Assembly: GCA_963422465.1 (NCBI GenBank)
Contig: OY730171.1
Span: forward strand, 5,228,202 to 5,292,201
Source: Lichina pygmaea
Taxonomy: Eukaryota > Ascomycota > Lichinomycetes > Lichinales > Lichinaceae
Length of the DNA stretch: 64,000 bases
Reading direction: 5' to 3'
Shown here: in pieces, positions 5,517 to 46,390 of the stretch
Layout of the letters: each line of letters begins with the position of its first letter
Position numbering within the stretch: position 1 is the stretch's first letter
Program-made: the position numbers and the translations under genes
Notes under the pieces: generated by a model
Databases searched by the model: none
Told to the model about the DNA's origin: nothing
Seen by the model: the letters and a program-made list of their open reading frames with translations, nothing else

Positions 5517-8500
5517 AAGGTGTTGGAGGGTGCTAAGGTCTGTGCAAGGCAGAAGCTTCAGTGCTTGGTGAAAGAGATAGAGTCAGATAGTGAGGATTTG
5601 ACTTGATCAGTCATTGACACATCCCTCCTGCAGGCCAAGCTGTTCAGTCCTGCTCCTGCCGAAACTGTCGCAGAAGAAGCTGGCAGTTTGCGAGGTTCTT
5701 GAGTGGTTCCCAGGTATTCTCCAAGTCTGGGTATTCTTTCCACTTGACAAGATATTGCTGACCTTTCCTAGCCAGGATCTGTTCAACTTCAAACTCTTGT
5801 TCTTCTTCAGGTTGATAATGAAATGTTTCCTGCAAGGGTGTGCTCTGGTCGGCTGGTTCAATCATCAATATGTGAAAGTTTGGATGGACTCTGGCATCCC
5901 TTGGTAGTTGTATCTTGATGTTGACTGGTCCTGTTTTCTCTTCGACTGAAAATAGTCTGACCTTGATGTTGTCAAGTTTCTTTGTCTTTGGTTTTTTCAT
6001 TTTCCAATTTCTTGTGAGAAGGTAGACTTTATCCCCCTTCTTTAGCTGAGGTGCTATTTTTGATTTCTTATCTATTTGATGTTACATTCTTTCTGAGATC
6101 TCTTGAAGGTAGTGCCTTATCATTGTGTGTGTTTGTCGTAGAAGCTTGTCATGTTGGAGTGCTTTCTCCGTGTTTGGTGAAGCTCTGCTTGGTATCCTGA
6201 TGTTCACATATTGTCCAAAATTGGCAAAAAATAGCAATTCCTTTGTTGAGTCTGATCTGTGCTGATTGATTGCCAGCTGTGTCACCGGTAATAACTGTAC
6301 TCAATTGCTGTGGGTCTGGTTGATGTAATGCTGTAAGTAAGTCTCCAGAACTTGGTTTGCTCACTCTGTCTGGCTGTCAGTTTGTGGGTGATAGACTGTA
6401 GACATTTTGGGTTTTGTTCCCATGGCTGTACTGATTGTTTTCTAGTAGTTGGATGTGAAGAGTTTGTCTCTGTCTGTAATGATCATGATTGGAACTCTGT
6501 GGTCTCTGACCAATCTGTCCAGTAAGAGGTGTCCCAACTGTTCTGCTGTGTGGGTCTTCTTGAATAGTACTACTATTAGATATTTTGTGAATCTGTCCAC
6601 TATCACCATAATCAAGTTGTAGGTGATTCCTGTGACTGGGTCTTTGGACTTGGGTAGCTTTGTGATGAAGTCTATTGACACATCTTCCCACAGACCTCTC
6701 AGTATCATGTTCAGGTGTCCTTCTCCATATAGCTTGTGTCTTCTGTATTTGTTTTTCTGGCACAGTAGACATTTGCTGATGTAGCTTGTGACATGTTGTC
6801 AGAGGTTGATGACATTGTTCCCTGCCTGTTGGATAAGGTCTGTGGTCTTGGAGATTCCTGGGTGACCATGTGCTGGGTTATCATGGTAGTTTCTTATTAA
6901 TTCTTCAGTATCTTCTGCTGTGAGCTTATTGATCTGTGGTCAAGGTACCAGGTTTCCTTGCTGGTCCTGCTGTAAGATCATTCCTTGGTGTTCATCATCT
7001 TCCATGTGGTCTTTTTGTCAGCTTAGTGTGTCTGCTCTCCTGTTGTCTTGTCTGGGGGTATACAAGATCTTAAACTTGTGTTGCCCTAGGAGTTCAGCCC
7101 ATCTGACTTGCTGTCTGTTCAGCTTCTTGGTTGTCGTGAATGTTGTCAGATTCTTGTAGTCTGTGAGAACAGTGAGTTCAGAACTGCTTTCTGTGTACAC
7201 TCTCCAGTGTTCGAGTGCATTGACAACTGCCAGTAGCTCTTTGTTATGGATATCATAGTTCTGTTCCACTTGTATTATTTTTCATGAGTAGTAGGCAACT
7301 GGGTGCCACTTGTTGTCTGCCTGTTAGCATAAACATGCTCCCACTGCCTGATCTGAAGTGTCTGTCTTGATTTGTGTTGGTTGGCCTGTCTTGAAGTTGA
7401 GAAGAACTGGTTCCTTGATGCAAGTGTCCTTGAGCTGTTGGAATGCTTTTTGTTATCTCTCTGTCCACTGGTACTCCACGTTCTTCTTTGTGAGTTCTGT
7501 CAGTGGTGTTGCCATCTGTGAGTAGTTCTTAATAAACTGTTGGTTGAAGTTGGCAAATCCTAGGAAGGCTTGTACTTCCTTAACTGATATCAGTGTTGGC
7601 TATTGCTGAATCACTTTGACTTTCTCAGGGTTGATCTTGATTCCTTTGATTCCTATGATGTATCTGAGGAATTCAACTTCCAGTTTGTTGAACTCGCATT
7701 TCTTCAGTTTGAGCTTGAGCCCTACCTTTTGTAGACATCATAGAACATCCTTCACATGTTTGGTATGTTCCTGTTGCGTGTTCAAGTAGATAAGAATGTT
7801 GTCCAAGTAGGTGATAGCTGTTTAGTCCAGGTGTACTCTGATGATGTTGTTGATCAATGCTTAACATATTGCTGGTGTGTTTGTGAGTCTGAATAGCATA
7901 ACCAGATACTTGTAGTATCTGTATCAGGTTCTGAAGGCTGTCTTCCATTCTTCTCCTTCTTTCATATGTATCAGGTTGTATGCTCCTTTCAAGTCCAGCT
8001 TGGTAAAGATTATAGCTTGGCTGATCCTGTCTCGCAATTTGTTCACATTTAGCAACAGATATCAGTTTTTGATGGTAATGTTGTTGAGTTTCCTGTAATC
8101 CACACAAAGTCAAAGACTTCTGTCTTTCTTTGGTGCAAATAGTATCAGGTATCCTGCTGGCGATTGAGATTCTTGAATGAAACCCTTTTTCAGGTTTTCC
8201 TCCATGTACTCACAAAGTACTTGGAGCTCTTTCTCTGATAACTGGTAAATTGGTCCAAATTCTGGCTCCATCCCTGGTTGCAACTTGATCTCATAATCTC
8301 AAGGTTGGTGCTTAGACAATACTGCTGTTGTTGTCTCTTCCTGAAAGAGGTTATCATACCCAGGTCAGTACTCTTCAGGGATCTCCAGAGGGTTAACAAC
8401 TTCCTCTCTCTTCATCTCTGACTGTTTGGCCACCTGGTTCTGGAGTGTGCCTGTCAAGTTGGACCTCTTCTCTTGAGAGTTGTCTTTTCTGTCAGTGAGG

Positions 8501-13513: not shown

Positions 13514-16500
13514 CTATCCTCCTCTCCATCTTTCATCATCTTGATGAAATCTGGTCATACCTCCAAAGTCATGTGTGACTGTTAGCTGAACTCAGCTTGC
13601 TGCTCAAATCTGCAATCAGAGTTTTGTTTTGCGTACACCCTACGACTTTTGTGTTCTCTGTGGTTGTCTGTGCTTCTAGATGCTGGGAGAAGATGATAAG
13701 TTGAAATGTGCTGTGTGCACTTGGCGTGGAAGGTCTTGTGTCTCTGTGTCCTGGGAATCTCTGAACATGTCCCAGGACAACCTCCGTGAGGATGTGGCCA
13801 CTGACAAGGCAACATGCGATGTACTCTTTGAACAACTTGCCACAGTGCAGGCTTGTCTGTCTCAGAAGTGAAAGGTGTTGGAGGGTGCCAAGATCTATGT
13901 GAAGCAGAAGCTTCAGTGCTTGGTGAAAGAGATGGAGTCAGATGGCAAGGATTTGATTTGATCAGTTATTGACACATCCCTCTTGCAGGCTGAGCTGTTT
14001 GGTTCTGCTCCTGCTGAAACTATCACAGAAGAAGCTGGCAGTTTGTGAGGTTCTTGAGTGGTTCCCAGGTATTTTCCAAGTCTGGGTATTCTTTCCACTT
14101 GACAAGGTATTGCTGACTTTTTCTAGCCAGGATCTGTTCAACTTCAAACTCTTGTTCTTCTTCAGGTTGATAATAGAATGTTTCCTGCAAGGGTGTGCTC
14201 TGGTCGGCTGGTTCAATCATCAATATATGAAAGTTTGGATGGACTCTGGTATCCCTTGGTAGTCGTATCTTGATGTTGACTGGTCCTGTTTTCTCTTCGA
14301 CTGAAAATAGTCTGACCTTGATGTTGTCAAGTTTCTTTGTCTTTGGTTTTTTCATTTTCCAATTTCTTGTGAGGAGGTAGACTTTATCCCCCTTCTTTAG
14401 CTGAGGTGCTATTTTTGATTTCTTGTCTATTTGATGTTGCATTCTTTCTGAGGTCTCTTGAAGTTAGTGCCTCATCATTGTGTGTGTTTGTCGTAGGAGC
14501 TTGTCATGTTGGAGTGCTTTCTCCGTGTTTGGTGAAGCTCTGCTTGGCATCCTGATGTTTGCATGTTGTCCAAAATTGGCAAAAAATAGTGATTCCTTTG
14601 TTGAGTCTGATCTGTGCTGGTTGATTGCCAGCTGTGCCACCAGTAATAACTGTACCTAATTGCTGTGGGTCTGGTTGATGTAATACTGTAAGTAAGTCTC
14701 CAGGACTTGGTTTGCTTGCTCTGTCTGGCTGTCAGTTTGTGGGTGATAGGCTGTAGACATTTTGGGTTTTGTTCCCATGGCTGCACTAATTGTTTTCCAG
14801 TAGTTGGATGTGAAGAGTTTGTCTCTGTCTGTAATAATCATGATCAGAACTCCATGGTCTCTGACCAATCTATCCAGTAAGAGGTGTCCCAACTGTTCTG
14901 CTGTGTGGGTCTTCTTGAATAGTACTACTATTAGATATTTTGTGAATCTGTCCACTATCACCATAATCAAGTCATAGGTGATTCCTGTGACTGGGTCTTT
15001 GGACTTGGGTAGCTTTGTGATGAAGTCTATTGACATGTTTTCCCACAGGCCTCTTGGTATTGTGTTTGGGTGTCCTTCTCTGTATAGCTTATGTCTTCCA
15101 TGTTTGTTTTTCTGGCATAGTAGACACTTGCTGATGTAGTTTGTGACATGTTGTCAGAGGTTAATAACATTGTTCCCTGCCTGTTGGATAAGGTCTGTGG
15201 TCCTGGAGATTCCTGGGTGACTATGTGCTGGATTATCGTGGTAGTTCCTTATTAGTTCTTCAGTGTCTTCTACTGTGAGCTTGTTGATCTGCGGTTGAGG
15301 CACCAGGTTTCCTTGCTGGTCCTGCTGTAAGATTGTTCCTTGGTGTTCATCATCTTCCATGTGGTTTTTTCGTCAGCTTAGTGTGTCTACTCTCCCATTG
15401 TCTTGTCCAGAGGTGTACAAGATCTTGAACTTGTGTTGCCCTAGGAGTTCAGCCCATCTGACTTGCTGTCTGTTCAGCTTCTTGGTTGTTGTGAACGTTG
15501 TCAGATTCTTGTGGTCTGTGAGAACAGTGAGTTCACAACTGCTTTCCACGTACACTCTCCAGTGTTCGAGTGTGTTGACAACTGCCAGTAGCTCTTTATC
15601 ATGGATATCATAGTTTTGTTCCACTTGTGTTATTTTTTGTGAGTAGTAGCTGACTGGGTGCCACTTGCTGTCTGCCTGTTGGTATAGACATGCTCCCACT
15701 GCCTGATCTGAAGTGTCTGTCTTGATTTGTGTTGGTTGGCCTGTCTTGAAGTTGAGGAGAACTGGCTCCTTGGTGCAAGTGTCCTTGAGCTGTTGGAATG
15801 CTTTTTGTTGTCTCTCTGTCGACCAGTACTCCACATCCTTCTTTGTGAGTTCTGTCAGTAGTGTTGCCATCTGTGAGTAGTTCTTTATGAACTGTCAGTT
15901 GAAGTTGGCAAATCCTAGGAAGACTTGTACTTCCTTAACTGATGTCAGTGCTGGCTATTGCTGAATCACTTTGATTTTCTCAGGGTCAATCTTGATCCCT
16001 TTGATCCCTATAATGTATCTGAGGAATTCAACTTCTGGTTTGTTGAACTCGCATTTCTTTGGGTTGAGCTTGAGCCCTGCCTCTTGTAGGTATTGTAGAA
16101 CATCCTTCACATGTTTGGTATGTTCTTGTTGTGTGTTCAAGTATACAAGAATGTTGTCCAGGTAGGTGATAGCTGTTTGGTCCAGGTGTGCTCTGATGAT
16201 GTTATTGATCAATGCTTGACATGTTGCTGGTGTGTTCGTGAGTCTGAATGGCATCACCAGATACTTGTAGTGTCTGTATCAGGTTCTGAAGGCTGTCTTC
16301 CATTCTTCTTCTTCTTTCATGTGTATCAGGTTGTATGCTCCTTTCAAGTCCAGCTTGGTAAAGATTGTAGCTTGGCTGATCCTGTCTCGCAATTTGTTCA
16401 CATTTGGCAACAGATATCAGTTCTTGATGGTAATGTTGTTGAGTTTCCTGTAATCCACAGAAAGTCAAAGACTTCCATCTTTCTTTAGCGCAAATAGTAT

Positions 16501-22400: not shown

Positions 22401-24798
22401 TTGCCAACTTCAACCAACAGTTCATTAAGAACTACTCACAGATGGCAACACCACTAACAGAACTCACAAAGAAGGACGTGGAGTACTGGTAGACAGAGAC
22501 ACAACAAAAAGTATTCCAACAGCTCAAGGACACTTGCGCCAAGAAACCAGTTCTCCTCAACTTCAAGACAGGCCAACCAACACAAATCAAGACAGACACT
22601 TCAGATCAGGCAGTGGGAGCATGTCTATGCCAACAGGCAGATAGCAAGTGGCACCCAGTTGCCTACTACTCACAAAAAATAACACAAGTGGAACAAAACT
22701 ATGATATCCACGATAAAGAGCTACTGGCAGTTGTCATCACACTTGAACACTGGAGAGTGTACGCGGAAAGCAGTTCTGAACTCACTGTTCTCACAGACCA
22801 CAAGAATCTGACAACATTCACGATAACCAAGAAGCTGAACAGACAGCAAGTCAGATAGGCTGAACTTCTAGGGCAACACAAGTTCAAGATCTTGTACACC
22901 CCTGGACAAGACAACAGGAGAGCAGATGTACTAAGCTGACGAAAAAACCACATGGAAGATGATGAACACCAAGGAACAATCTTACAGCAGGACCAGCAAG
23001 GAAACCTGGTACCTCAACCACAGATCAACAAGCTCACAGCAGAAGACACTGAAGAACTAATAAGGAACTACCACAATAATCCAGCACATGGTCACCCAGG
23101 AATCTCCAAGACCACAGACCTTATCCAACAGGCAGGGAACAATGTTATTAACCTCTGACAACATGTCACAAACTACATCAGCAAGTGTCTACTATGCCAG
23201 AAAAACAAACATGGAAGACATAAGCTATACAGAGAAGGACACCTGAACACAATGCTGAGAGGCCTGTGGGAAGACATGTCAATAGACTTCATCACAAAGC
23301 TACCCAAGTCCAAAGACCCAGTCACAGGAATCACCTACAACTTGATTATAGTGATAGTGGACAGATTCACAAAATATCTAATAGTGGTACCATTCAAGGA
23401 GACCCACACAGCAGAACAGTTGGGACACCTTTTACTAGACAGATTGGTCAGAGACCACAGAGTTCTGATCATGATCATTACAGACAGAGACAAACTCTTC
23501 ACATCCAACTACTGGAAGACAATCAGTGCAGCCATGGGAACAAAACCCAAAATGTCTACAGCCTATCACCCACGAACTGACAGCCAGACAGAGTGAGCAA
23601 ACCAAGTCCTGGAGACTTACTTACAGTATTACATCAACCAGACCCACAGCAATTGGGTACAGTTATTACTGGTGGCACAGCTGGCAATCAACCAGCACAG
23701 ATCAGACTCAACAAAGAAATCACTATTTTTTGCCAATTTTGGACAACATGCGAACATCGGGATACCAAGCAGAGCTTCACCAAACACGGAGAAAGCACTC
23801 CAACATAACAAGCTCCTACAACAAACGCACACAATGATGAGGCACTACCTTCAAGAGACCTCAGAAAGAATGCAATGTCAAATGGATAAGAAATCAAAAA
23901 TAGCACCTCAGCTAAAGAAGGGGGATAAAGTCTACCTCGTTACAAGAAATTGGAAAACAAAGAAACCAAAAACAAAGAAACTTGACAACATCAAGGTCAG
24001 ACTATTTTCAGTCAAAGAAAAAACAGGACCAGTCAACATCAAGATACAACTACCAAGGGATGCCAGAGTCCATCCAAACTTTCATATATCAATAATTGAA
24101 CCAGCCGACCAGAGCACACCCTTGCAGGAAACATTCCATTACCAACCTGAAGAAAAACAAGAGTTTGAGGTTGAACAGATCCTGGCTAGAAAAGGTCAGT
24201 AATACCTTGTCAAGTGGAAAGGATACCCAGACTCAGAAAATACCTGGGAACCACTCAAGAACCTCACAAACTGCTGGCTTCTTCTGTGACAGTTTCAGCA
24301 GGAGCAGGACTGAACAGCTTGGCCTGCAGGAGGGATGTGTCAATGACTGATCAAGTCAAATCCTTGCCATCCAACTCTATCTCTTTCACCAAGCACTGAA
24401 GCTTCTACCTCGCACAGACCTTGGCACCCTCCAACACCTTTCGCTTCTGAGACAGACAAGTCTGCACTGTGGCAAGTTGTTCAAAGAGTGCATTGTGTGT
24501 TGCCTTGTCAGTGGCAACATTCTCACAGAGGTTGTCCCGGGACATGTTCAAAGATTCCCAGAACACAGAGACACAAGACTTTCCATGCTGAGTACACACA
24601 GCACATTTCAACTTATTGTCTTCTCCCGGCATCTGGAAGTACAGACAACCACGGAGAACACAAAAGTCGCAGGGTGTACGTGAAACAAAACCCTGATCGC
24701 AGATTTGAGCAGCCAGCTGAGTTCGGCTAACAGTCGCACATGACTTTGGAGGTATGACCAGATTTCATCAAGATGATGAAAGATGGAGAGGAGGATAG

Positions 24799-25392
24799 TG
24801 TTACAACCCAGGAGGAACACAGTCTTTATATACTTACAGAAAGCAGCAGACAGGATACTGGACAGAAGTACCAGACAGCATGACACGGGAACCAGTCACA
24901 TGACCAGCAAGACAAACCAGGGGGTGCTCGCCGCAGCATGCATATGCATGAACAAGTGAGCAAAGTGAGCAGAGCTCACTCAGCTTGCCGCAGCGTGCAT
25001 GAAAAGTGAGCAAAGTGAGCAGAGCTCACCCAGCTCGCCACAGTGTGCATGAAAAGTGAGCAAAGTGAGCAGAGCTCACCCAGCTCACTGCAGCATGCAT
25101 GAAAAGTGAGCAAAGTGAGCAGAGCTCACTCTGCTCACAAACTGGGCACTATATAGTCTGGCGATAGTTCCCCTATGGAATGATCGTCTTCAACTCATGT
25201 TGTGATCCAGACAACTAGATCTACTTCAATACAATCCTTTTGTACGAAGCTGTTGATCAGGTGTCACCACCACCACATTCCACCAAACCCCTTCGCACTC
25301 CTTGACACTCCTCTCCTGTGAGAACCAACCCACCTTCCACCTCTCACCCTAATCCTATACTCAGATAGGACAGTACAGTACAGACCGCAACA
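24799..25392 (+). repeat. 3' LTR of E4, type A
   Basis: Same length as the 5' LTR. Preceded by a purine run (AGATGGAGAGGAGGATAG) that fits a polypurine tract. Confidence 0.9.
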
Positions 25393-25508
25393 GGTGGCTG
25401 TATCCTCTGTCATGGTGTTTCTCCATTGCTCACTCAAATAGTTTGTTATCAATGTTGATTGCTTGTGCGATGAGTTTGTCCAGTGTGTTGACCACTTGTC
25501 TGTCGAAG

Positions 25509-25901
25509 TGTTAAAGGCCAGTCCATGTTCACACAGAATATGGGTGGTCCTGTCTTCAACCGAGGAGGGCAGGGACTCAATAGATGAATAGCAAGTGGAG
25601 TAACTCTCTTGCTATTGTCGCTTGTAATGTGCGTTCAGCCTGGAGAGCTATTCTCTCCGGCTATCTGGGTTCTTATATACAGAAGCCTGAGGGGGGGGGG
25701 AGTCCTCCCAAGGGGTATCAGCTTTCTGCGTGGACAAGCTGGATGAGCTGGTTACACATCGTCCGCCTTGTCCACCGTGGACGAGCTGGACAAGCTGGTT
25801 ACACATTGTCCACCTTGTCCACCGGGTCAGGTGAACATTATTCTGTGTACCTCTGTACACTCGCTTCAGTCGGCTCAGCTGTTCCGGCCTGGGCCTTAAC
25901 A
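25509..25901 (-). repeat. 3' LTR of F2a
   Basis: 393 bp. In element sense it starts TGTTAAGGCCCAGG and ends CTTTAACA. U3 holds two 47 bp repeats with GTGGAC...GTCCAC dyads and a G run. Confidence 0.9.
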
Positions 25902-25953
25902 CCATCCCCTCCCTCCAAAGGTTCTGTCCCCAGATCCTCTCACTTCTCTTACC

Positions 25954-26484
25954 ATGACCCGGACATCTTGTGTTAATCGTCGTGGAGTCCTCAGTTCTTG
26001 TGTTGGCAAGATAGGCAAGATATCCAAAGTTTCATGCAGTGCATGTCGTCGTGACAATGCCAAGTGTGTCGTCAGTTCAGAGTCTACATTTTGCGGTCGG
26101 TGCCTTGAGAAGGGTCGCTGTTGTGATCTCCATCTCGCGGAGTCGGAGTGGGAGAAGATGGAGCTTAAGCGCACTCAGCTCAAGGCTCAACTGAAGGAGA
26201 TCAAGGAGCAGGAGTCCGTTCTCCTTCCTCGCAAACTTTGTCTCCATCGTCAGTTGGGTGTGTTGTCCAAGAAGGAGGGTGAGGCCATCAAGCGTGAGCT
26301 TGCTGCGATCAAGGATCAGGAGGATCTCAAGCAGGAGGCTACGTGTGTGGAGTCCCCGCCACCTTTGGAGGACTTCTTCTCTTCGGAGGCTTTGGCTTCT
26401 CTTGAGCCTTTGTCTCCATCAATCCTGGCTTCTGCGGGTTTTGTCGGTGGAAACTCTGCAGTTTCTCGTTCATCGCAGGGCTGA
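25954..26484 (+). CDS. F2a antisense gene: Zn2Cys6-like cluster plus coiled coil, open
   Basis: 176 residues, ATG (ACCATGA context) to TGA, on the strand opposite gag-pol. It starts 52 bp from the inner edge of the 3' LTR and its C-terminal end runs up to or into the end of pol, tail to tail. Residues 30-60 hold CSACRRDNAKC and FCGRCLEKGRCC: cysteines spaced 2-6-8-2-5/6, the fungal Zn(II)2Cys6 pattern. A charged coiled coil follows (WEKMELKRTQLKAQLKEI). The C-terminal part is acidic and serine-rich (EDFFSSEALASLEPLSP) and could be an activation or contact region. No membrane or signal sequence. The family is known as DNA-binding regulators that dimerise by the coiled coil; the role here is inferred. 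Codon use is GC-rich and CpG is kept, unlike nearby family-1 sequence. Confidence 0.72.
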   Translation: MTRTSCVNRRGVLSSCVGKIGKISKVSCSACRRDNAKCVVSSESTFCGRCLEKGRCCDLHLAESEWEKMELKRTQLKAQLKEIKEQESVLLPRKLCLHRQLGVLSKKEGEAIKRELAAIKDQEDLKQEATCVESPPPLEDFFSSEALASLEPLSPSILASAGFVGGNSAVSRSSQG

Positions 26485-29400
26485 AGTTTTCGGTGGGTTC
26501 CCACAAGTTCTCCTTATTGTCATACCCTAACCACTTGACCAGGTATTCAATTTTCCGTCCACTTCTCCAGCTGTCTAGAATTCTTTCGACATCATACTCT
26601 TCTTTGTTGTCCTTGAAGTACTATTCTGTTTTGATTGCTGTGTCGCTGGGTGCTGGCTCAAGCAGCAAGACATGGAATACTCGGTGTATCCATGCCTTTT
26701 TTGGCAGTCTCAGTCGGTAGTTGACTTCTCCAGTGCACTTCTCAATTTCAAACAGTCCGATTCGTACATGATCCAGCTTTTTGCTTGGTCACTTCAAGCG
26801 CAGGTTTTTTGTTGACAAATAGACCTTATCCCCCCTCTCCAGGGTTGGTCCCTTCAACCTTTTGCTGTTTAGGCAGTGGCTTGTTGTCTTTTGTGCAGAT
26901 TCAATTGCAGTCTTCATTTCCTCATGCATAGCAGTGAGTTTTTCGACGTTCGTTGAAGTGCCACTTCCAGCCGCCATCGCTTCCCAGTGGGGGTTTCTGC
27001 CGTAGTTCGCAAAGAACAGTGTCATGCCCGTCACACTGTGTTGCTGATTGTTGTACGCAAACTGAGCCATTGGTAGCAGTTCTACCCAATCGTCCTGTTG
27101 GTGGTTGACGTAGTGGCGTAGGTACTGTTCCATTGTCTGGTTTGTTCTCTCAGTTTGTCTGTCTGTTTGTGGATAGTAGGCAGTAGACATCCTCGTGTCT
27201 ATCCCTAGCTGTCTTGTCCACATGTTCCAGAATTTCAAGGTGAAGAGTTTGTCTTGATCTGAGATAATCTTTGTGGGTAGCCCTCGCTGGCTAACCAATT
27301 CTTTGAGCAGGACATTGGTGAGTTCGCTCGCTGTTCCTGTCTCTCGCCACAGGATCAGGTGAGCGTATTTGGTGAGTTTGTCAACAACCACCAAGATACT
27401 GTCATATTTCACCCTTGTTACTGGGTCCTCTGACCTCGGCAGCTTCACCACAAAATCCATTGTGATGGTATCCCAAGCCACTTCTGGGAGGTCCATTTGT
27501 TGACTCTCTCCATAGGGTTTGTGGTGTGACAGTTTGTTTTTCGCACACTCTTCGCAGTTGCGAATAAATTCCGTCACTTTCCACTTCATTCTGTTGAAGT
27601 GGTAACATCTCCGGATCTTTTCCAGGGTCTTGTCTTGCCCAGGATGTCTGTGTAGAGGTCTATCATGATGTTGTCGAATCACGTCCTCTTGTGCGCTCTC
27701 TGGCACTTCTTCCTTGTTCGTGGCCGCAACGTTGTGGCCTAGGGTCAGGAGTGCACCTATTTCTTCAGTTCTCACTAACTGAGGTTGAGCATAGACCAGA
27801 GTTTGTCCTTTTGTCACCAGGATTGGGTGCTCTTCTGTCGTGTTGTCTGTTGTCATATCAGGCTGCCTGCTAAGCGCGTCCGCTTGTGCGTTTTCTGATC
27901 CTTTTTGATAGAAGATCTGGAAGTCGTATGAAGCTAAAAGCTCTGCCCATCGGACTTGTTGTCTGTTTAGCTTCTTCGTCGTCATGAAGTAAGCCAAATT
28001 CTTGTGGTCTGAGTACATGTCCACTGTGTACTTTGCTCCTTCCAGGTAAGGTCTCCACTCCTGGAATGTGTCGACAATCGCTAACAACTCCTTGTCGTGA
28101 ACATCGTACCTGAGTTCTGGGCCAGAGAACTTTCTTGATCAGTATGCGACAGGGTGTAGGCAGTCTTCGGTGTCTGGTTGACACAAGCAAGATCCAAGTG
28201 CTTGGTCCAAGGCATCCGTCTCCATGATGATCTGCCGTCCGGGATCAAATGATGCCAGTATGGGTGTGGAGGTGAATTTCTCTTTCAGCTCCTGGAACAC
28301 TCTCTCTTGGCTGTTCCCCCAAGTGAAGGTTTCTTCCTTCTTTGTTAGTTCAGTCAAGGGTGCTGCTGTCCTCAAGTACTCCTTGATGAATTGTTGGTAG
28401 AAGTTCGCAAATCCCAGGAAGGATTGGACTTCTTTGAGGTTTTTGGGTGTTGGCCAGTCTCGTACTACCGTGATCTTTGTATCGTCCATACAGATTCCTT
28501 CCGTCATCAGAATCAATCCCAAATATTCCACTTCTTTCACGTGGAAGACACTTTTATCAAAGTGTAACCTCATTCCTGCTTCTTGGAGTGCATGTAGGAT
28601 CTTCTTGACATGCTGTCTGTGCTCCTCCAGGGTTCCATTGGTGTAAACCAAGACATCATCAATATAAGCGGTAACAAATATATCCAGGTATTGTCGGAGG
28701 ATAGCGTTAATGAGTGATTGGAACATCGCCGGTGCATTCGTAAGGCTGAATGGCATAACAGTATACTCGTAATGCCCGTACCTCGTACGAAAGGCTGTCT
28801 TCCATTCTTCGCCATCTTTCATCCTAACCAGGTTGAAAGCACCTTGGATATTGAACTTGGTAAACCACTTGGCTCCTTGGATTCAGTCCTGGATTTCCGA
28901 TATTAACGGTAGCGGGTAGTGATTCTTAATCATGATCACATTAAGCTGCCAGTAGTCAACGCACAGTCGTAATTTGCTGTCCTTCTTTGGCACAAACAAT
29001 ATCGGGTATCTGGCCGGTGATGTTGAAGGTCTTATGAACTCTTTCGCTAGGTTCTCGTCCAGGTAATCTCTTAAGGCCTCAAGCTCCTTTGCTGATAGAG
29101 TGTAAATAGGGCTGTGTGTGGGTTTCTTTCTGTCTTCCAGTGGAATTTTGTGATCCCACTCTTGGTGTTCTGGTAGCGTCACGACCGCTTCCTCACCAAA
29201 CATCTCCTGGTAGTCTTTATACTCACTTGGCAGCTGCGGTGCCTGAGTCTCGCCCACGGCGTCATGCGTGGTGCAAAGTTGATGGTTTCGGGGCTTCATC
29301 CAAGCCACATAGGCTCGCCCTCGCCGGTGGTGCTTCTTCCACCCTGCATATAAGATCTCTTTGATTCTCACTTTCTCTGGCTCTGCTCGAGTTGCCAGAC

Positions 29401-31433
29401 TCCTCTTCGGAAAGACTAGGTGCCTTCTTTTCCAGTTGATCCTTGGGTTTTGACTTTCCAACCACGGAAGACCCAATATAACTTCATGTGGTATCTGGAC
29501 CAAGTCAAATTCTTCTGATCTGATTGTTGTACTGTCAACACACAGTCGTAGGTTCTTGGTCTTCTTCATCACTTGTCCTTGGTCGTTGGAGAGTGGTGTC
29601 CCGTCCACTACCATTAGTTGGTATAGATTCCTCTTTTCCTGAGTCAGGATCTTGTGCTTCCTGGTGAAACTTTCTGACAGGAAGTTGCCAGTAGCTCCAG
29701 AGTTGATCATGGCATTTGTCAGATGCCTGTTGACTCTCATCTTGATGTGAAAATGCAGACTGCAGGCTGTCGTGTCAAGGCTCTGCTCAACCCCTTCTCT
29801 CCGGAGTGTTGTCTTGCCTGCTCTTCTGACTCCGGATTTGAAGAGCACTGCTAGTTTTTTGAACAACCAAGACCCTGAGCCTGGTGTTCTGCCGTGTGTC
29901 TTTCACATTTTTCGGTGAAGCATAGCTCCCATGCATCTTCTCCGCAATCATCGTGTTCTTTCCCTTGCTGGCTTAGCTGGTGCTTGATGCTCCAGGCTTT
30001 CTTGTGGCATTCTGGGCCAGGGAAGTAGTGCCTTCTCCTTTTCTCTAGGAGATGTTCCTTGCAGTGGTGGTCCTCGCATCCTTTCCAATAAGGATGTCTG
30101 CAGGCTGGTGTCGTAGCCTGGTGAAGGTCCACTTGCGCTGCGATGTCTCGGAGCTGTGAGATGCTGATGGTGTTGTCCACCCATCGCGTTACTCTTGCTT
30201 CGCTGTCCTCTGACAAGGTCGCATCCTGTCGTCAGAGTAGTGGTGTCTTGGGAACTGGTGGCATACCGGTTATGTCAATCTTGTAGTCTGTTATGTCAAA
30301 TTCAGAGATCAGGTCATCCTCCCAATAAACCTTATCGATCTGGTCTTGGGTTGTGTGCAGGTCCTCCAGTGACCTCTGCAGATTGTTCTCCAGTCTTTTG
30401 ATATGCTGTCTGAGATTGTCCTCCTGTCTGAGGAGTGTTGCTTCTGACCGGTTCATGGGTAGCGTGCCTCTGGGAGCTCTCGGTGGCTCCTGAATGCCCT
30501 TGCCTTTCCAGGCACCAGTGGCATTCAACTGCTTACCCTTGCCTTCTTTCTTCTTCTTGCTTTGGCAGTTGGCTGCGAGGTGTCCTACCTTCTGGCAATT
30601 GTAACACTTCTGTGTTTCTTTCTTCTTTGTTGCCTGTGGTGTTGTTGCATCAATCTCCATGGGTGTCAAGCTGTACTTGTCTTGTGCAGGCACTGTCTTT
30701 TTGCCCTATGGCCTTGCATGCTTGCCTCACTTCTCGAGTTCTTGTTCAAACTGTCAGTTGTCGATGTGTACCACTGTGTCAATCATATCCTCAAGGTCAG
30801 TGGGTCAGTCTCCTCGTGCGATGTCATCCTTGACTTGTTTCTTGAGAGCTTGGTAGAATAGTGCTGTCAAGGCACTGTCTCCCTATTGTGTCCTCACTGA
30901 CAACTGTTGGAACTTCACCGCAAAGTCTGATGCTGACCCTGTCTGCCGTAGTGCTTGGAGCTTTCATTCCACATCTTGTTCTTCATCAATGACCCCGAAG
31001 GTCTTCTTCATCTGGGTCTTGAAGGTAGAGAATCTCCCAATAATCTGCCGTGTCATGGTCTCCATGCTAGAGGGATCTTCCTTGTTGTTGAGGAAGTCTT
31101 GTAGGTAGACATTGAACCAGGCAAATGTCAGTCCGTCCAGGTAGGAAGCTGTGAACAGCACCTTCTCCTGTTCCGTAGGGAATTGTGCGGTGTTGAATCT
31201 GTAGTAAAGCTCAAGCTGAGAGAAGAATAGTTCCAATCCCCCTCGTGATCCATCGTACCTCTTCAGCGTACCTACCTTCAACAGCTTTGGAGGTAAGGTG
31301 AGGGTGGTAGGGACAGGTGGTTCCTGGGCTTGCGCCTGAGGCGCAGCCCAAGCTTGGCCTGCCTGCGAAGGGGTAGGGCTGTGTGGATCTGCCATCGTAT
31401 TGAGCCAGTGTCCTATGTGTTAGAGGCTGAAAC

Positions 31434-31825
31434 TGTTAAAGGCCAGTCCACGTTCACACAGAATGTGGGTGGTCCTGTCTTCAACCAAGGAGGGCAGGGA
31501 CTCAATAGATGAATAGCAAGTGGGGTAACTCTCTTGCTATTGTCGCTCGTAATGTGCGTTCAGCCTGGAGAGCTATTCTCTCCGGCTATCTGGGTTCTTA
31601 TATACAGGAGCCTGAGGGGGGGGGGGTCCTCCCGAGGGGTATCAGCTTTCTGCGTGGACAAGCTGGACAAGCTGGTTACACATCGTCCGCCTCGTCCACC
31701 GTGGACAAGCTGGACGAGCTGGTTACACATCATCCACCTTGTCCACCGGGTCAGGTGAACATTGTTCCATGTACCTCTGTACACTCGCTTCGGTCAGCTC
31801 AGCTGTTCCGGCCTGGGCCTTAACA
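31434..31825 (-). repeat. 5' LTR of F2a
   Basis: 392 bp. Sense TATATA at 31599-31604. Two 47 bp U3 repeats start at 31654 and 31701. The bases just past its end (31424-31431) are complementary to 31559-31566 in R. Confidence 0.9.
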
Positions 31826-32345
31826 CGAAGGTGATTTCATCCTTCATGTTTTCCTTGAGTCCACGTCAGTACATGACCATCAGGGTGTTGTCATCCCAGT
31901 CAGTCAGTACTGAGTATTGTTTGAACTACGTGGTGTACTCTGCGGCTGAGCGTTGTTGCTTGATGTGCTGGATCATCTGTATAGCCACTTTGTCTTTATT
32001 AGATAGTCCAAGGATTCTTTTGATCTTGTCCTTGAATCACGTCCATTTTGTCATCTATTCTGTTGTGCCATCATAGTCTCTGTTTCCTGAGAGATGTTTG
32101 TTAACGTAGGGCTTGATCTATCAATAAGTATTGCCTCTTATGTAAGTGGTTGCGAAGAGGGGTCACTTGTCCTTAGGCAGCTTTGTCTCTGGTTGGAATT
32201 GAAAGTAGACTTGGAGTTGCATGAGCCAGTCATCAACCTTGTTTCTTTCGCTGTAGAACAGGTCTGGCTTGGCGACACTAATCTTTCTATCTGGGAAGTT
32301 GGGGTTGGTTGCTCCTGAAGTACTCATCCTTGAGGGTCTTCAAAG

Positions 32346-37489: not shown

Positions 37490-38090
37490 TGTTGCAGTCT
37501 GTACTGTACTGTCCTATCCGAGTATAGGATTAGGGTGAGAGGTGGAAGGTGGGTTGGTTCTTGCAGGGGAGGAGTGTCAAGGAGCACGAAGGGGTTTGGT
37601 GGAACATAGTGGTGGTGACACCTGATCAACAGCTTTGTACAAAAGGATTGTATTGAAGTAGATCTAGTTGTCTGGATCACAACATAAGTTGAAGACGATT
37701 GTTCCATAAGGGAACTATCACTGGACTATATAGTGCTGGCCTGTCAAGACAATTGAGATTGTCTTGACAGTCTTGACATCAAGACAGGTGAGATTGTCTT
37801 GACAGTCCTACCATGTTATGCACTCTGCGTTGAGACAGGTGAGATTGTCTTGATGCTTCATGCATCCTGCGTCAAGACTGGTGAGATTGTCTTGATGCTT
37901 CATGCATCCTGTGTCACGACTGGTGAGATTGTCTTGATGTTTCATGTATACTGTGTCAAGACTCCTGTGTGTGTCTCGACAGTCACGTGACCCCTTGTTG
38001 GTTGGTCACTTGACTTCCATGGTGTCCTCTTGCCTGGCCTGTGGCCTGATTGCCTATAAATAAGTGGCTCCCATCCCCTGGGTCGTAACA
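37490..38090 (-). repeat. 3' LTR of E6, type B
   Basis: 601 bp with U3 repeats of the GTCAAGAC/GATGCATGAAGCATC kind and an edge TATA (CCTATAAATAAG) facing the antisense gene. Confidence 0.9.
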
Positions 38091-41000
38091 CTACCCTCCT
38101 CTCCTTCATTCATCGTCCTGATGAATTCTTGAGTATGTCTGCAAAATCACGTGCCTCTGCTTACTGAAACCAACTGGCAGCCCAGATCTGTGATCATAAC
38201 TCTGTGTCGCTTGCTCCATGTGACTTCTGTGTTTTGAACCACAAGCCCTGCTTCCAAATGTCTGACGACAACGATAAATTGAAGTGCGCTGAATGCACTT
38301 GTCGTGGGAAGTCCTGTGTGTCACTTTCTTGGGAGTTGTTGAACATGACTTGAGATAACCTTCGTGAGGATTTGGCTGTTGATAAGGCCAAGCAGGATGC
38401 TCTTGTTGAGCAGCTTGCCGAGCTGCAGGCTTGTGTGTCCTGAAAGTGAAAGGTTCTTGAGGGTGCTGAGGGTTGAGTGAAGAAGAAGCTCCAGTGCCTT
38501 GTTGCTGAAATGGAGGCAGATAGTGAAGATTTGTCAGCGACAGTCATTGACACATCTGCGCTGTAGGCCAAGCTGTTCAGTCCTGCTTCTGCCGGAACTA
38601 CTGCAGGAGGAGCTGGCAGTTCGCAAGGTTCCTGAGTGGTTCCCAGGTATTTTCCAAGTCTGGGTAGTTTTTCCACTTGACAAGGTATCACTGACCTTTT
38701 CTCTTCAGAATCTGTTCGGCCTCAAATTCCTGTTCTTCTTCGGGTTGGTAATGGAATGTTTCCTGCAAGGGTGTGCTCTGGTCGGCTGGTTCAATCATTG
38801 ATATATGAAAGTTTGGATGGACTCTGGCATCCCTTGGTAGTCGTATCTTGATGTTGACTAGTCCTGTTTTTTCTTCAACTGAAAATAGTCTGACCTTGAT
38901 GTTGTCAAGTTTCTTTGTCTTTGGTTTCTTTGTTTTCCAATTTCTTGTAAGGAGGTAGACTTTATCCCCCTTCTTTAGCTGAGGTGCTATTTTTGATTTC
39001 TTGTCTATTTGATGTTGCATTCTTTCTGAAGTCTCTTGAAGGTAGTGCCTCATTATTGTGTGTGTTTGTTGTAGGAGCTTGTCATGTTGGAGTGCTTTCT
39101 CTATGTTTGGTGAAGCTCTGCTTGGCATCCTGATGTTTGCATGTTGTCCAAATTTGGCAAAAAATGGTGATTCCTTTGTTGAGTCTGATCTGTGCTGGTT
39201 GATTGCCAGCTGTGCCACCAGTAATAACTGTACCCAATTGCTGTGGGTCTGGTTGATGTAATGCTGTAAGTAAGTCTCCAGGACTTGGTTTGCTTGCTCT
39301 GTCTGGCTGTCAGTTTGTGGGTGATAGGCCGTAGACATTTTAGGTTTTGTTCCCATGGCTGCACTGATTGTCTTCCAGTAGTTGGATGTGAAGAGTTTAT
39401 CTCTGTCTGTAATGATCATGATCAGAACTCTGTGGTCTCTAACCAATCTGTCCAGTAAAAGGTGTCCCAACTGTTCTGCTGTGTGGGTCTTCTTGAATGG
39501 TACTGCTATTAGATATTTTGTGAATCTGTCCACTATCACCATAATCAAGTTGTAGGTGATTCCTGTGACTGGGTCTTTGGACTTGGGTAGCTTTGTGATG
39601 AAGTCCATTGACATGTCTTCCCACAGGCCTCTCAGTATTGTGTTTGGGTGTTCTTCTCTGTATGGCTTGTGTCTTCCATGTTTGTTTTTCTGGCATAGTA
39701 GACACTTGCTGATGTAGTTTGTGACATGTTGTCAGAGGTTAATGACATTGTTCCCTGCCTGTTGGATAAGGTCTGTGGTCTTGGAGATTCCTGGGTGACC
39801 ATGTACTGGATTGTCGTGGTAGTTCCTTATTAGTTCTTCAGTGTCTTCTGCTGTAAGCTTGTTGATCTGTGGTTGAGGCACCAGGTTTCCTTGCTGGTCC
39901 TACTGTAAGATTGTTCCTTGGTGTTCATCATCTTCTATGTGGTCTTTTTGTCAGCTTAGTGTGTCTGCTCTCCTGTTGTCTTGTCCAGGGGTGTACAAGA
40001 TCTTGAACTTGTGTTGCCCTAGGAGTTCAGCCCATCTGACTTGCTGTCTGTTCAGCTTCTTGGTTGTCGTGAATGTTGTCAGATTCTTGTGGTCTGTGAG
40101 AACAGTGAGTTCAGAACTGCTTTCCGCGTACACTCTCCAGTGTTCAAGTGTGTTGACAACTGCCAATAGCTCTTTGTCGTGGATATCATAGTTTTGTTCT
40201 GCTTGTGTCATTTTTTGTGAGTAGTAGGCAACTGGGTGCCACTTGCTGTCTGCCTGTTGGCATAGACATGCTCCTACTGCCTGATCTGAAGTGTCTGTCT
40301 CAATTCGTGTTGGTTGGCCTGTCTTGAAGTTGAGGAGAACTGGTTTCTTGGCGCAAGTGTCCTTGAGCTGTTGGAATGCTTTTTATTATCTCTCTGTCCA
40401 CCAGTACTCCACGTCCTTCTTTGTGAGTTCTGTTAGTGGTGTTGCCATCTGTGAGTAGTTCTTAATGAACTGTCAGTTGAAGTTGGCAAATCCTAGGAAG
40501 GCTTGTACTTCCTTAACTGACATCAGTGTTGGCCATTGCTGAATCACTTTGATTTTCTCAGAGTCAATCTTGATCTCTTCAATCCCTATGACATATCCAA
40601 GGAATTCAACTTCTGGTTTGTTGAACTTGTATTTCTTTGGGTTGAGCTTGAGCCCTGCCTGTTGTAGGTATCGTAGAACATCCTTCACATGTTTGGTATG
40701 TTCCTGTTGCGTGTTTGAGTAGACAAGAATATTGTCCAGGTAGGTGATAGCTGTTTAGTCCAGGTGTGCTCTGATGATGTTGTTGATCAATGCTTGACAT
40801 GTTGCTGGTGTGTTTGTGAGTCCGAATAGCATAACCAGATACTTGTAGTGTCTGTATCAGGTTCTGAAGGCTGTCTTCCATTCTTCTCCTTCTTTCATGC
40901 ATATCAGGTTGTATGCTTCTTTCAAGTCCAGCTTGGTAAAGATTGTAGCTTGGCTGATCCTGTCTTGTAATTTGTTCGCATTTGGCAACAGATATCAGTT

Positions 41001-43432
41001 CTTGATGGTAATGTTGTTGAGTTTCCTGTAATCCACACAAAGTTGAAGACTTCTGTCTTTCTTTGGTGCAAATAGTATCGGGTATCCTGCTGGCAATTGA
41101 GATTCTTGAATGAAACCCTTTTTCAGATTTTCCTCCAGGTACTCGTGAAGTACTTGGAGCTCTTTCTCTGATAACTGGTAAATTGGTCCAAATCCTGGCT
41201 CCATCCCTGGTTGCAACTTGATCTCATGATCCCAAGGTTGGTGCTTAGGCAACACTGCTGTTGTTGTCTCTTCCTGAAAGAGGTTATCATACCCAGGTCA
41301 GTACTCTTCAGGGATCTCCAGAGGGTTAACAACTTTCTCTCTCTTCATCTCTGACTGTTTGGCCACCTGGTTCTGGGGTGTGCCTGTTGAGGTGGACCTC
41401 TTCTCTTGAGAGTTGTCCTTTCTGTCAGTGAGGTTCCACTGAGGACTGCTTCCCTCATCTGTCCACGCCTTCTGCGGCTGGTAACAGGTCTGAGCTGTGT
41501 TGTTAGTGCAGTTCCTAAATGTGAGTACTTCTGTCTTCCAGTTAACAACTGGGTTGTGCTTCTTTAGCCAAGGCATCCCCAAATAGATATTCTGAGTGGC
41601 CAACTCAACAATATCAAGGTGGATCCTTTCAGCATAGTGTCCGGTAACTATTTCCATTGGCTGCGTCTCATGGCAGACTATCTCTGTCTGTCCATTTGCC
41701 ATCGCGAGCTGATAGGGCTGCTACTTGCGTCTCCTTCCAGTGCTGAGGGTATCATAAAGTTGTCTTGAGATGTAGTTTCCACTGGCTCCAGAGTCAACAA
41801 GTGTGTATATCTGTACTGGTGTGTTGGCGTGTAGTGACACAGGTAATCACAGGTGCTTTGTGTTGCTAGGGGTCATGTTGTTAAGCTTCTGATGTCACCC
41901 CTTGACAAGGGAGTTCAGTCTTTTCCTGATTGAAGTGTCTTTCCACTGACTAGGCAATAGGTCCAGCCACTTCTATCAGTTCTGAGGAATCTGTTCATGA
42001 ATTTGTCTTGCTGATGCTTGTCACATCCAGGCTTGAGGCAGTACTGCCAATTGTCAATGTAGCAGTTGTAGTTGTTGTCTTGCTGTAGGAACATGAGGCA
42101 TTCATGCCAATCATGTGTGTGCCCGGGGAATGCAGTGTGTTGGTGTTTGTCCCAAAGATAGATCTCACACGCATCCTTCTCGCAATTGACTCAATGCTTG
42201 TGGCAGGTGGTGTGGTAGGGTGAATGTCCTCTGTACCTTCATAGTTGTTTGTGGTAGGTGCAGTAGTGCTTTGTGCAAAACCTCCACTGTAGTTCACCAT
42301 GCTGTAGATTTCGTGGGTCCATGCTGTAAGCATAGCTTTCTTGTGGTATTTCTTCTTTGATAGACACAGGTTCATCTTGGTCCCCATCAGAGGTGGTTAA
42401 GGACTCCTGTCCCTTGTCCTCACCTGTCTGTTCTGGTAGGTCCTTGCCTCCTGATGTTGCCAGTTGGTGGGCTGCTTCCAATATCTGATCGTAGTTGTCC
42501 TATTGTTCAAGGGATAGCTGAGTCTCTCCTGGTGGGTCCTCTGGCTTGATGACATTCCAGTCTCTGTCAAGTGTATTAAGTTGCTGTCAGTGCACCTTGT
42601 TCTTTGAACAACAGTCTTTCGCCATGTGGTCTAGCTTGCCACAGGTATAGCACTTCAGTGCTTTCCCCTTTTTGTTGTTCCTTCCCTTTGTGAACCTTCC
42701 CTTGTGGTGGACTGCATCCAGTTCCATGGGTGCATAGCCATATAGGTCATGTGGTGGTGTCTTGTTAGGTGGCTTGTAGTGGTTGCTCACATGCCATGCA
42801 GGGTGGCTGTATCCTCTGTCGTGGTGTTTCTCCATCGCTCACTTGAATAGCTTGTCATTGATGTTGATTGCTTGTGCGATGAGTTTGTCCAGTGTGTCGA
42901 CTGCTTGTCTGTTGAAGGTGATTTCATCCTTCATGTTTTCCTTGAGTCCACGTTAGTACATGACCATCAGGGCATCATCATCCCAGTCAGTCAGTACTGA
43001 GTATTGTTTGAACTGCGTGGTGTACTCTGCGGCTGAGCGTTGTTGTTTGATGTGCTGGATCATTCGTATAGCCACTTTGTCTTTGTTAGATAGTCCAAGG
43101 ATCCTTTTGATCTTGTCCTTAAATTGTGTCTATTTTGTCATCCATTCTGTTGTGCTGTTGTGGTCTCTGTTTCCTGAGAGATGTTTGTTGACGTAGAGCT
43201 TGATCCATCAATAAGTATTACCTCTCATGTAAGTGGTTGCGAAGAGGGGCCACTTCTCCTTAGGCAGCTTTGTCTCTGGTTGGAATTGAAAGTAGACTTG
43301 GAGTTGCATAAGCCAGTCATCAACCTTGTTTCTTTCGCTGTAGAACAGGTCTGGCTTGGTGATGCTAATCTTTCCATCTGGGAAGTTGGGGTTGGTTGCT
43401 CCTGAGGTACTCATCCTTGAGGGTCTTCAAAG

Positions 43433-44033
43433 TGTTGCAGTCTGTACTGTACTGTCCTATCCGAGTATAGGATTAGGGCGAGAGGTGGAAGGTGGGTTGG
43501 TTCTTGCAGGAGAGGAGTGTCAAGGAGTGTGAAGGGGTTTGGTGGAATATGGTGGTGGTGACACCTGATCAACAGCTTCGTACAAAAGGATTGTATTGAA
43601 GTAGATCTAGTTGTCTGGATCACAACATGAGTTGAAGACGATTGTTCCATAAGGGAACTATCACTGGACTATATAGTGCTGGCCTGTCAAGACAATCAAG
43701 ATTGTCTTGACAGTCTTGACGTTGAGACAGGTGAGATTGTCTTGACAGTCCCACCATGTTATGCACCCTGCGTCAAGACGGGTGAGATTGTCTTGATGCT
43801 TCATGCATCCTGTGTCGAGACTGGTGAGATTGTCTCAATGCTTCATGCATCCTGCGTTGAGACTGGTGAGATTGTCTTGATGCTTCATGCATGCTGCGTC
43901 AAGACTCCTGTGTGTGTCTCGACAGTCATGTGACCCCTTGTTGGTTGGTCACTTGACTTCCATGGTGTCCTCTTGCCTGGCCCGCAGCCTGATTGCCTAT
44001 AAATAAGTGGCTCCCATCCCCTAGGTCGTAACA
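43433..44033 (-). repeat. 5' LTR of E6, type B
   Basis: 601 bp, same length as its partner. It ends at the ACCAC duplication. Confidence 0.9.
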
Positions 44034-45491: not shown

Positions 45492-45992
45492 TCAGGAACC
45501 TCGCGAACTGCCAGCTCCTCCTGCAGCAGTTCCGGCAGAGGCAGGACTGAACAGCTCAGCCTGCAGCGCAGATACGTCAATGACTGTCGCCGACAAGTCT
45601 TCACCATCCGCCTCCATTTTGGCAACAAGGCACTGGAGCTTCTTCTTTGCTCGACCTTCAGCACCTTCAAGAACCTTTTGCTTTCGGGACACACGAGCCT
45701 GCAGCTTGGCAAGCTGCTCAACAAGAGCATCCCGCTTGGCCTCATCAACAGCCAAATCCTCGCGAAGGTTATCCCGAGTCATGTTCAGTGACTCCCAAGA
45801 AAGTGACACACAGGACTTCCCATGATGAGTGCATTCAGCGCACTTCAACTTATCGTTGTTGTCAGACATTCGGAAGCAGGGCTTGTGGTTCAAAACACAG
45901 AAGTCACACGGAGCAAGCAACATGAAGTTATGATCACGGATCTGGGCTGCCAGTTGTTTTCGGTAAGCAGAGGCACGTGATTGTGCAGACAT
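45492..45992 (-). CDS. E5 antisense gene: Zn2Cys6-like cluster plus coiled coil, open
   Basis: 167 residues from the ATG at 45992 ([13 protein letters not shown]) to the stop at 45492. The frame is also open upstream into the LTR, but this Met lies 44 bp inside the LTR edge, as in the A-type copies. Cysteines [11 protein letters not shown], then [12 protein letters not shown], are spaced 2-6-11-2-6, within the fungal Zn2Cys6 range. A long coiled coil follows ([18 protein letters not shown]), then a Lys-rich stretch, an acidic stretch and an Ala/Gly/Ser tail. The last about 60 bp overlap the end of pol tail to tail. C-terminal wording resembles the family-2 protein (LFSPA...GSS), which suggests common descent. 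DNA binding is inferred from the motif only. Confidence 0.72.
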
Positions 45993-46065
45993 ACTCAAGA
46001 ATTCATCGGGACGATGAATGAAGGAGAGGAGGGTAGTGTTACGACCCAGGGAATGGGAGCCACTC

Positions 46066-46073
46066 ATTTATAG
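46066..46073 (-). promoter_or_regulatory. TATA box facing the antisense gene
   Basis: CTATAAAT on the minus strand, about 30 bp inside the LTR edge and about 75 bp before the antisense ATG at 45992. A TATA at this offset occurs in type-A and type-B LTRs although their U3 sequences differ. Confidence 0.6.
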
Positions 46074-46136
46074 GCAATCAGGCCGCGGGTCAGGCAAGAG
46101 GACACCATGGAAGTCAAGTGACCAACCAACAAGGGG

Positions 46137-46144
46137 TCACGTGA
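46137..46144. promoter_or_regulatory. TCACGTGA palindrome in U3
   Basis: E-box type palindrome about 100 bp from the LTR edge, at the same offset as in type-A LTRs (for example 18961-18968 and 17997-18004). Upstream of the antisense TATA. Possible activator site. Confidence 0.5.
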
Positions 46145-46390
46145 CTGTCGAGACACGGGAGTCTCGACGCAGGATGCATGAAGCATCGAGACAATCTCAC
46201 CAGTCTCGACGCAGGATGCATGAAGCATCGAGACAATCTCACCAGTCTCGACGCAGGATGCATGAAGCATCGAGACAATCTCACCCGTCTTGACGCAGGG
46301 TGCATAACATGGTGGGACTGTCGAGACAATCTCACCCGTCTCGATGTCGAGACTGTCGAGACAATCTCGATTGTCTCGACAGGCCAGCAC

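Follow-up and report, generated by a model that had tools for sequence, protein, structure and literature searches.

The window analysed here, a 64,000-nucleotide stretch of contig OY730171.1 from the ascomycete Lichina pygmaea, contains LTR retrotransposons of two families, in which a small gene lies antisense to gag-pol. The family 2 element of type a is on the reverse strand, with its 5′ LTR at 31431–31826 and its 3′ LTR at 25506–25902 (94.7% identical to each other). Its pol gene is represented by a reverse transcriptase piece (28142–28882), a piece with the RNase H end and the integrase (26792–28138, used as the pol control), and a terminal chromodomain (26342–26620; PF00385, E = 1.1e-13), all on the reverse strand. 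The chromodomain at the end of pol identifies family 2 as a chromovirus. The pol end of family 1 is chromodomain-like by eye, and the family 1 pol pieces that were scanned gave no Pfam match to a chromodomain.

The antisense gene of the type a element (P0002, 176 amino acids) occupies 25954–26484 on the forward strand, and encodes a cysteine cluster followed by a long helix. Its ATG, at 25954, is located 51 bp inward of the 3′ LTR, the U3 end of which adjoins the gene. In this copy, the 3′ end of the gene is overlapped by the tail of the sense chromodomain at 26339–26484 only. The second type of family 2 gene, type b (P0003, 190 amino acids; 61332–61904, forward strand), starts about 60 bp from its 3′ LTR. 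The integrase piece of the type b element (62212–63558, reverse strand) has 4 stops and is 91.5% identical in amino acid sequence to that of the type a element.

Family 1 also has two types. The open gene of type A (P0001, 166 amino acids) is at 45492–45992 on the reverse strand, with the frame open upstream to 46067 (191 amino acids), and a type A copy with 6 stops is at 38135–38632 on the forward strand. The ATGs of these two copies, at 45992 and 38135, are each located 44 bp inside the 3′ LTRs of their elements (46037–46634, forward strand, and 37490–38090, reverse strand, the latter belonging to the element at 37490–44033). Three type B copies are found at 5202–5699 (forward strand, 3 stops), 13557–14054 (forward strand, 5 stops) and 24258–24755 (reverse strand, 3 stops). 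An initial annotation of this DNA had described the three open frames at these same places, with gag-pol on the opposite strand and with cysteine spacings of 2-6-8-2-6 in family 2 and 2-6-11-2-6 in family 1, and all of this is borne out. The broken copies that it had listed exist as well, but they are longer than the extents that it gave.

The antisense genes thus begin roughly 44–60 bp from the inner edge of the 3′ LTR and run inward on the strand opposite gag-pol, and this placement between pol and the 3′ LTR is the one that characterizes the antisense genes known as aORF-3R. Such genes are also expected to be present in many copies and to be conserved. In the 32.5-Mb genome (8 contigs), at least 150 copies of the antisense gene were scored for each family, out of 275 and 511 candidates, and dN/dS between lineages is low (see below). 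For the family 1 protein, 146 relatives were found at E ≤ 0.01, with identities of 39–91% among the best 120 of these 146. Those near 90% identity may come from the same species or from one near it, and relatives at 39–70% identity are present in other records. The only named source among them is Watsoniomyces obsoletus, an ascomycete. A search of IMG/VR for relatives confirmed none.

In both families, the antisense open reading frame codes for a protein that is subject to purifying selection. When type a (21 copies) and type b (24 copies) of family 2 are compared, the mean numbers of differences at the three codon positions are 47, 30 and 76, and dN/dS is 0.26, or 0.29 after the removal of CpG-type changes; the dS of the helix segment is saturated and is not taken as a number. 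A comparison between family 2 copies had been proposed as a check in the initial annotation, and its outcome is not neutral between these lineages. Among the six frames in family 2, only the antisense frame has hardly any stops, and its dN/dS is the lowest; a frame on the opposite strand with a dN/dS of 0.38 carries 5–6 stops per sequence. In family 1, the comparison of type A (6 copies) with type B (3 copies, all broken) gives a dN/dS of 0.19. The bias among codon positions and the low dN/dS between lineages place this open reading frame beyond chance.

The constraint is not uniform. The tail of the gene, which partly overlaps pol, is under weaker constraint (dN/dS of 0.42–0.52 in family 2 and 0.50 in family 1). 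Within type a, dN/dS is 0.61, and pN/pS over codons 1–128 is 0.86, as compared to 0.31–0.37 for the same codons between lineages (all pN/pS values are uncorrected ratios of means). Between the young and old lineages of type b, pN/pS is 0.31 for the antisense gene and 0.20 for the integrase piece, and the antisense gene is therefore the less constrained of the two. The within-lineage dN/dS, as well as the invariance of the cysteines described below, leans toward intact copies because the sampled copies were mostly open: all 20 fetched type b copies were free of stops, and the type a sample consisted mostly of the best-ranked copies, 2 of 20 having a stop. Duplicate loci (L001, L002, L003, L005, L007 and L009) and short or incidental matches in L004, L026, L033 and L041 were dropped before the counts, and the comparisons of pN/pS and of median dS leave out L004, L006 and L008.

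It had also been claimed that copies with a broken gag-pol retain an open antisense gene. As a count this is correct. The gene is open in 18 of 20 fetched copies of the P0002 type, and the integrase piece of the same copies in 4 of 20; among the matches listed, 53 of the 61 copies of this type at 86% identity or above are free of stops. The contrast is, however, mostly explained by codon make-up. CpG-type transitions account for 66% of the differences within type a, the stops in the integrase pieces of the 20 type a copies are all TGA, and CGA codons occur 6.9 times per copy in the integrase piece and not at all in the antisense frame. Most of the contrast therefore follows from CpG decay together with the lack of CGA codons in the antisense frame, and the openness of decayed copies was rejected as a signal of selection.

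The CpG-dominated differences in the young lineage are the result of decay after insertion. This type of decay dominates in the type a copies (L017–L036) and in the family 2 copies of the window. RIP usually gives a CpA pattern, unlike the one seen here. Copies with 58–68% identity to P0002, among the matches listed, are older relatives of type a with TAG and TAA stops, and may represent the donor lineage of the type a antisense gene.

The arrangement of the cysteines is that of fungal Zn(II)2Cys6 regulators, which have the pattern C-x2-C-x6-C-x5–12-C-x2-C-x6–8-C. The 2-6-8-2-6 spacing of family 2 is invariant in 19 of 19 proteins, a set chosen as intact. In the family 1 alignment, the spacing is 2-6-8 to 11-2-6 in the 12 rows, out of 18, that cover the whole cluster, and a Tyr replaces one of the cysteines in a further relative, P0101. 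PF00172 is the Pfam family that matches the most members in each set, with matches at E ≤ 1 for 6 of 19 family 2 members (best E = 7.5e-4) and 7 of 18 family 1 members (best E = 0.049), as compared to 0 of 9 shuffled sequences in which the cysteines were preserved. The cut-off of 21 bits for PF00172 is not reached by single proteins, P0003 (16.3 bits, E = 0.011) and L029 (15.7 bits) included. Single scans of P0001 and P0002 gave no match to this family; the best Pfam matches were a PHD-like finger for P0001 (17.4 bits, cut-off 27) and a coiled-coil family for P0002. In a genome-wide search, PF00172 matched 40 places, 34 of them over the cut-off, and the antisense genes of the window are absent from these.

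Comparisons with sequences in the Protein Data Bank point in the same direction, though none of the matches is significant. The family 2 profile listed nine entries, five of which are Zn(II)2Cys6 proteins (LEU3 twice, CYP1, HAP1 and LAC9) with LEU3 in first place, and GAL4 is fourth of 13 for the family 1 profile. The antisense proteins share with regulators such as LEU3, HAP1 and GAL4 the spacing of the six cysteines and a helix after the cluster, and family 2 has basic residues between Cys2 and Cys3, as in LEU3. They differ from these regulators in being small, in being encoded antisense in a retrotransposon, and in falling singly below the Pfam cut-off. The Zn(II)2Cys6 assignment of the initial annotation thus has the cysteine pattern and the weak but recurrent PF00172 matches on its side and the scores of the single proteins against it. 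On the strength of these sequence features, the product is probably a zinc-cluster DNA-binding protein.

The models from AlphaFold2 contain a long helix after the cluster in both families, as had been expected, at residues 65–146 in family 2 and 66–128 in family 1 (pLDDT mostly near or over 90). This predicted helix is likely to be a coiled coil, and it could mediate dimerization. The zinc part has a low pLDDT of about 40–63 in the models of both families. Common descent of the two families' proteins, which the initial annotation had proposed, is not supported: the hhalign probability is 2.3%, and only the position, the order and the spacing agree. The blastp E-values of 1e-5 that connect the proteins of the two families were discarded as meaningless, as the database contained three sequences.

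The U3 regions next to the antisense genes contain tandem arrays of inverted repeats. The array of type 2a (25729–25824) has a 47-bp unit with the half-site GGACGAG/CTCGTCC, which is CpG-decayed in this copy, and that of type b (61124–61196) has a 35-bp unit with GGACGAGC-N16-GCTCGTCC. The half-site is common to the two family 2 arrays, and its arrangement is different. In family 1, the array of type A (46160–46305) has a 42-bp unit with TCGAGAC-N10-GTCTCGA, and that of type B (24945–25136) has a 50-bp unit with GTGAGC-N3-GCTCAC. Seven-base dyads with a spacer of up to 20 number 11–19 in five of six U3s, as compared to means of 0.4–0.8 and maxima of 5–7 after shuffling, where the U3 counts are inflated by the tandem repetition and single units give P values of 0.016, 0.044, 0.070 and 0.006 (arm of 6). 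The sixth U3, from the old lineage L052, has one such dyad, and its unit has no 6-base dyad. The control stretches of pol have no such dyads in four cases from family 2, and 1 and 0 in two cases from family 1. Inspection by eye did not reveal the CGG pair that is canonical for Zn(II)2Cys6 sites.

The arrays are matched to the type of the gene. Among 57 copies, the 1A half-site is found in 0 of 48 copies that are not 1A, the 1B half-site in 0 of 54 that are not 1B, and the family 2 half-site in 0 of 12 from family 1; at least one 1A copy is without its own half-site. In family 2, the type of the array is that of the gene in 44 of 45 copies, with one unclassified, these copies being non-independent and descended from few modules. 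In two of the 45, L004 and L037, the TATA-side part of U3 does not agree with the rest: a type a TATA-side U3 is joined to a type b array and gene, the join being at the shared half-site. The young b group in these half-site and array counts (13 copies) takes in L004, L006 and L008, and the pol of L008 is of the old kind. The residues between Cys2 and Cys3 differ between 1A and 1B (P0001 compared to P0074, which is 1B-like by eye), where the half-sites differ, and are nearly the same in 2a and 2b, where the half-site is shared, a comparison that comprises two contrasts only.

Putative promoter elements flank the arrays. A TATAWA motif directed toward the antisense gene is present 75–80 bp before the ATG in 11 of 12 family 1 copies (8 of 9 1A and 3 of 3 1B); in the open 1A copy of the window it is at 46065–46072 on the reverse strand, 80 bp before the ATG. 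It was found in none of 45 family 2 copies. In the direction of gag-pol, all 45 family 2 copies and 9 of 12 family 1 copies (8 of 9 1A and 1 of 3 1B) have a TATAWA motif on the array's R side, some of these boxes being TATATA, which is identical on both strands.

The U3 and the antisense gene together form a 3′ module that has been exchanged relative to R-U5 and gag-pol in both families. Similarity profiles of the 3′ half of the elements, in 100-bp bins, break twice, on the U3 side within the LTR and where pol ends, with the same pattern in the two families. Between type a and young b (two pairs), pol is 91–100% and the R-U5 side 95–99% identical, and the U3, the PPT region and the antisense gene are 55–83% identical. 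The situation is reversed between young b and old b (three pairs), with 81–98% for the module, 65–89% for pol and 64–71% for R-U5. In family 1, types A and B (four pairs) have 78–100% identity in pol (mostly above 90%) and 49–79% in the module, and R-U5 is 92–96% identical in the two pairs that have it.

The same reversal is seen in the synonymous changes. The median dS between type a and young b is 1.10 for the antisense gene (codons 1–128, outside the overlap with pol) and 0.049 for the integrase piece (210 pairs each), and that between young b and old b is 0.30 and 1.19, respectively (110 pairs each). No common mutation rate can produce both of these opposite contrasts, which establishes the exchange in family 2. 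Branch lengths in trees of 42 copies are in agreement with it. A quick pol tree mixes types a and b, with 6 label changes, and repeated exchange was considered on this basis. The AU test finds a better tree in which all type b copies are together, and a single exchange is not rejected (p = 0.78 and 0.28). The dS reversal, and not the topology of the trees, is therefore used here.

In reverse transcription, the 3′ end of the RNA is the template for the new U3, and the 5′ end is that for R-U5. As a result, the observed mosaic would need no more than one template switch, located between pol and the antisense gene. A neighboring gene and U3 become linked through such a switch with or without an interaction between them, and this calls for caution in interpreting the linkage.

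A conserved antisense gene that is inherited and swapped together with the control region of its element suggests that these elements regulate themselves. The best reading of the data, which we rate slightly above an even chance, is that of a self-encoded regulator that binds the array in its own U3, as the initial annotation had in part envisaged. On the strand opposite gag-pol, just inward of the 3′ LTR, each element would carry the gene for a small and probably dimeric Zn(II)2Cys6-like DNA-binding protein, and the targets of this protein would be the tandem inverted repeats in the U3 of the element's own LTRs. Since the U3 of the 5′ LTR precedes gag-pol and that of the 3′ LTR precedes the antisense gene, one protein could control both genes through one array, on all nuclear copies. 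Sense transcription would be the likelier output. Activation appears somewhat likelier than repression, as the array has the position of a fungal UAS, behind the TATA box of gag-pol.

The gene and its array would constitute one 3′ module, and one switch of template, falling between pol and the antisense gene, could join the regulator with its operator to a different gag-pol backbone. A more far-reaching version, which is tentative and on balance rather doubtful, is that the protein recognizes lineage-specific U3 dyads and determines how active all the copies that share a U3 are, and that lineages escape or change this control by swapping the module through template switching. Such a portable regulator-operator module would explain why, in two families, one gag-pol backbone has had its U3 and antisense gene exchanged, and its logic would be comparable to that of a phage immunity region.

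The strongest rival to a self-encoded regulator is linkage by neighborhood. The protein could be a nuclear accessory factor, with a role in nuclear import, in integration or chromatin targeting, or as a nucleic-acid chaperone, and the U3 repeats could be enhancers for host factors. The gene and U3 would then stay together simply as neighbors, as expected from one template switch alone. In the plant element Grande, the antisense protein is located in the nucleus, and it has been proposed that proteins of this class act like retroviral accessory proteins (PMC7264820). On the other hand, the half-site types do not cross between 1A, 1B and family 2, and the array has stayed with the gene in the two copies that have a TATA-side U3 of the other type. 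Both observations weigh little against an accessory factor, as neighbors stay together anyway, and we regard this explanation as unlikely but serious. A regulator of host genes, or of the antisense promoter alone and not of gag-pol, is improbable in our view; the array has the antisense gene on one side and the gag-pol TATA box on the other, and could serve either promoter.

Other explanations dispense with the function of the protein, partly or entirely. The antisense transcript itself may matter, with double-stranded RNA silencing the element and the open reading frame being secondary. The retrotransposon Ty1 is under the control of an antisense RNA (PMC12786077), and 11 of the 12 family 1 copies have a TATA box directed toward the antisense gene; the low dN/dS of the antisense frame and the invariant cysteines call for a protein, however, which leaves this possibility with a small probability. 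The gene could also be a captured fragment of a host Zn(II)2Cys6 gene, a passive passenger that is open owing to CpG-specific decay. The lack of CGA codons does explain the openness of young copies, and the ratios within type a (dN/dS of 0.61 and pN/pS of 0.86 over codons 1–128) are those that such a fragment might have. It is already disfavored by the ratios between lineages (dN/dS of 0.26 and 0.19, and pN/pS of 0.31–0.37 over the same codons) and by the family 1 relatives at 39–70% identity in other records, and it is very improbable.

The proposed self-encoded regulator would work in a manner similar to HBZ of HTLV-1, an antisense regulator expressed from the 3′ LTR that acts on a U3 with repeated elements. 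HBZ is a bZIP protein of a retrovirus, and no common descent is claimed. The antisense promoter of HTLV lies inside the 3′ LTR (PMC7264820).

The kind of gene described here is already known, and its place and strand are as in brtn of Boty and in plant elements. A review (PMC7264820) lists fungal (brtn) and plant examples of antisense genes in this position, between pol and the 3′ LTR. The Boty-like Ty3/Gypsy elements of Botrytis cinerea carry brtn (Zhao et al. 2011, Virology 417:248, as cited in passages of PMC7264820, PMC8365987, PMC4227169 and PMC5987419). As in the elements studied here, this antisense gene belongs to an ascomycete Ty3/Gypsy element that has a chromodomain (PMC4227169). 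In contrast to the present case, the passages on brtn do not speak of a zinc cluster, an operator in U3 or an exchange of modules. The aORF-3R genes of the plant elements Grande (gene23), RIRE2, Retand and PvRetro13 also agree with ours in place, strand and presence in most copies, and gene23 of Grande has its own promoter and a nuclear location (PMC7264820). According to the review, they have no clear protein similarity save for an SMC domain in PvRetro13 and a transposase 28 domain in Retand. The portion of the review that was available calls the function of aORF-3R unknown, suggests a regulatory role as for retroviral accessory proteins, and contains no regulator-operator module (PMC7264820).

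In the literature searched on antisense genes, zinc clusters and U3 self-regulation in LTR elements, which lies mostly outside subscription papers, no proposal of a regulator-operator module was found. The zinc-cluster reading, the U3 dyads and the module exchange were likewise not met in the papers searched on antisense genes of LTR elements. New here is the U3 with the antisense gene as an exchanged 3′ module in both families. Antisense genes beside the 3′ LTR have been known for years in plants and fungi, with their function described as unknown (PMC7264820). The present elements add a candidate DNA-binding domain, a gene that is tied both physically and evolutionarily to the control region, and candidate sites that differ between lineages, and the old question becomes one of simple binding and reporter tests. 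Should such tests prove positive, they would show that LTR retrotransposons are able to swap their own control as one piece.

The family 2 element of type a looks to be nested inside a family 1 element, as its flanks (25393–25508 and 31828–32127) match adjoining parts of one family 1 element (813–928 and 926–1225). Between the elements of the window, a GC-rich gene region contains a 348-bp tandem duplication (49170–49821; 1.9 copies, 97% matches). Beside the repeat cluster is a host gene, an open reading frame of 647 amino acids at 53213–55156, which resembles, by eye, a mitochondrial AAA protease of the YME1/FtsH kind.
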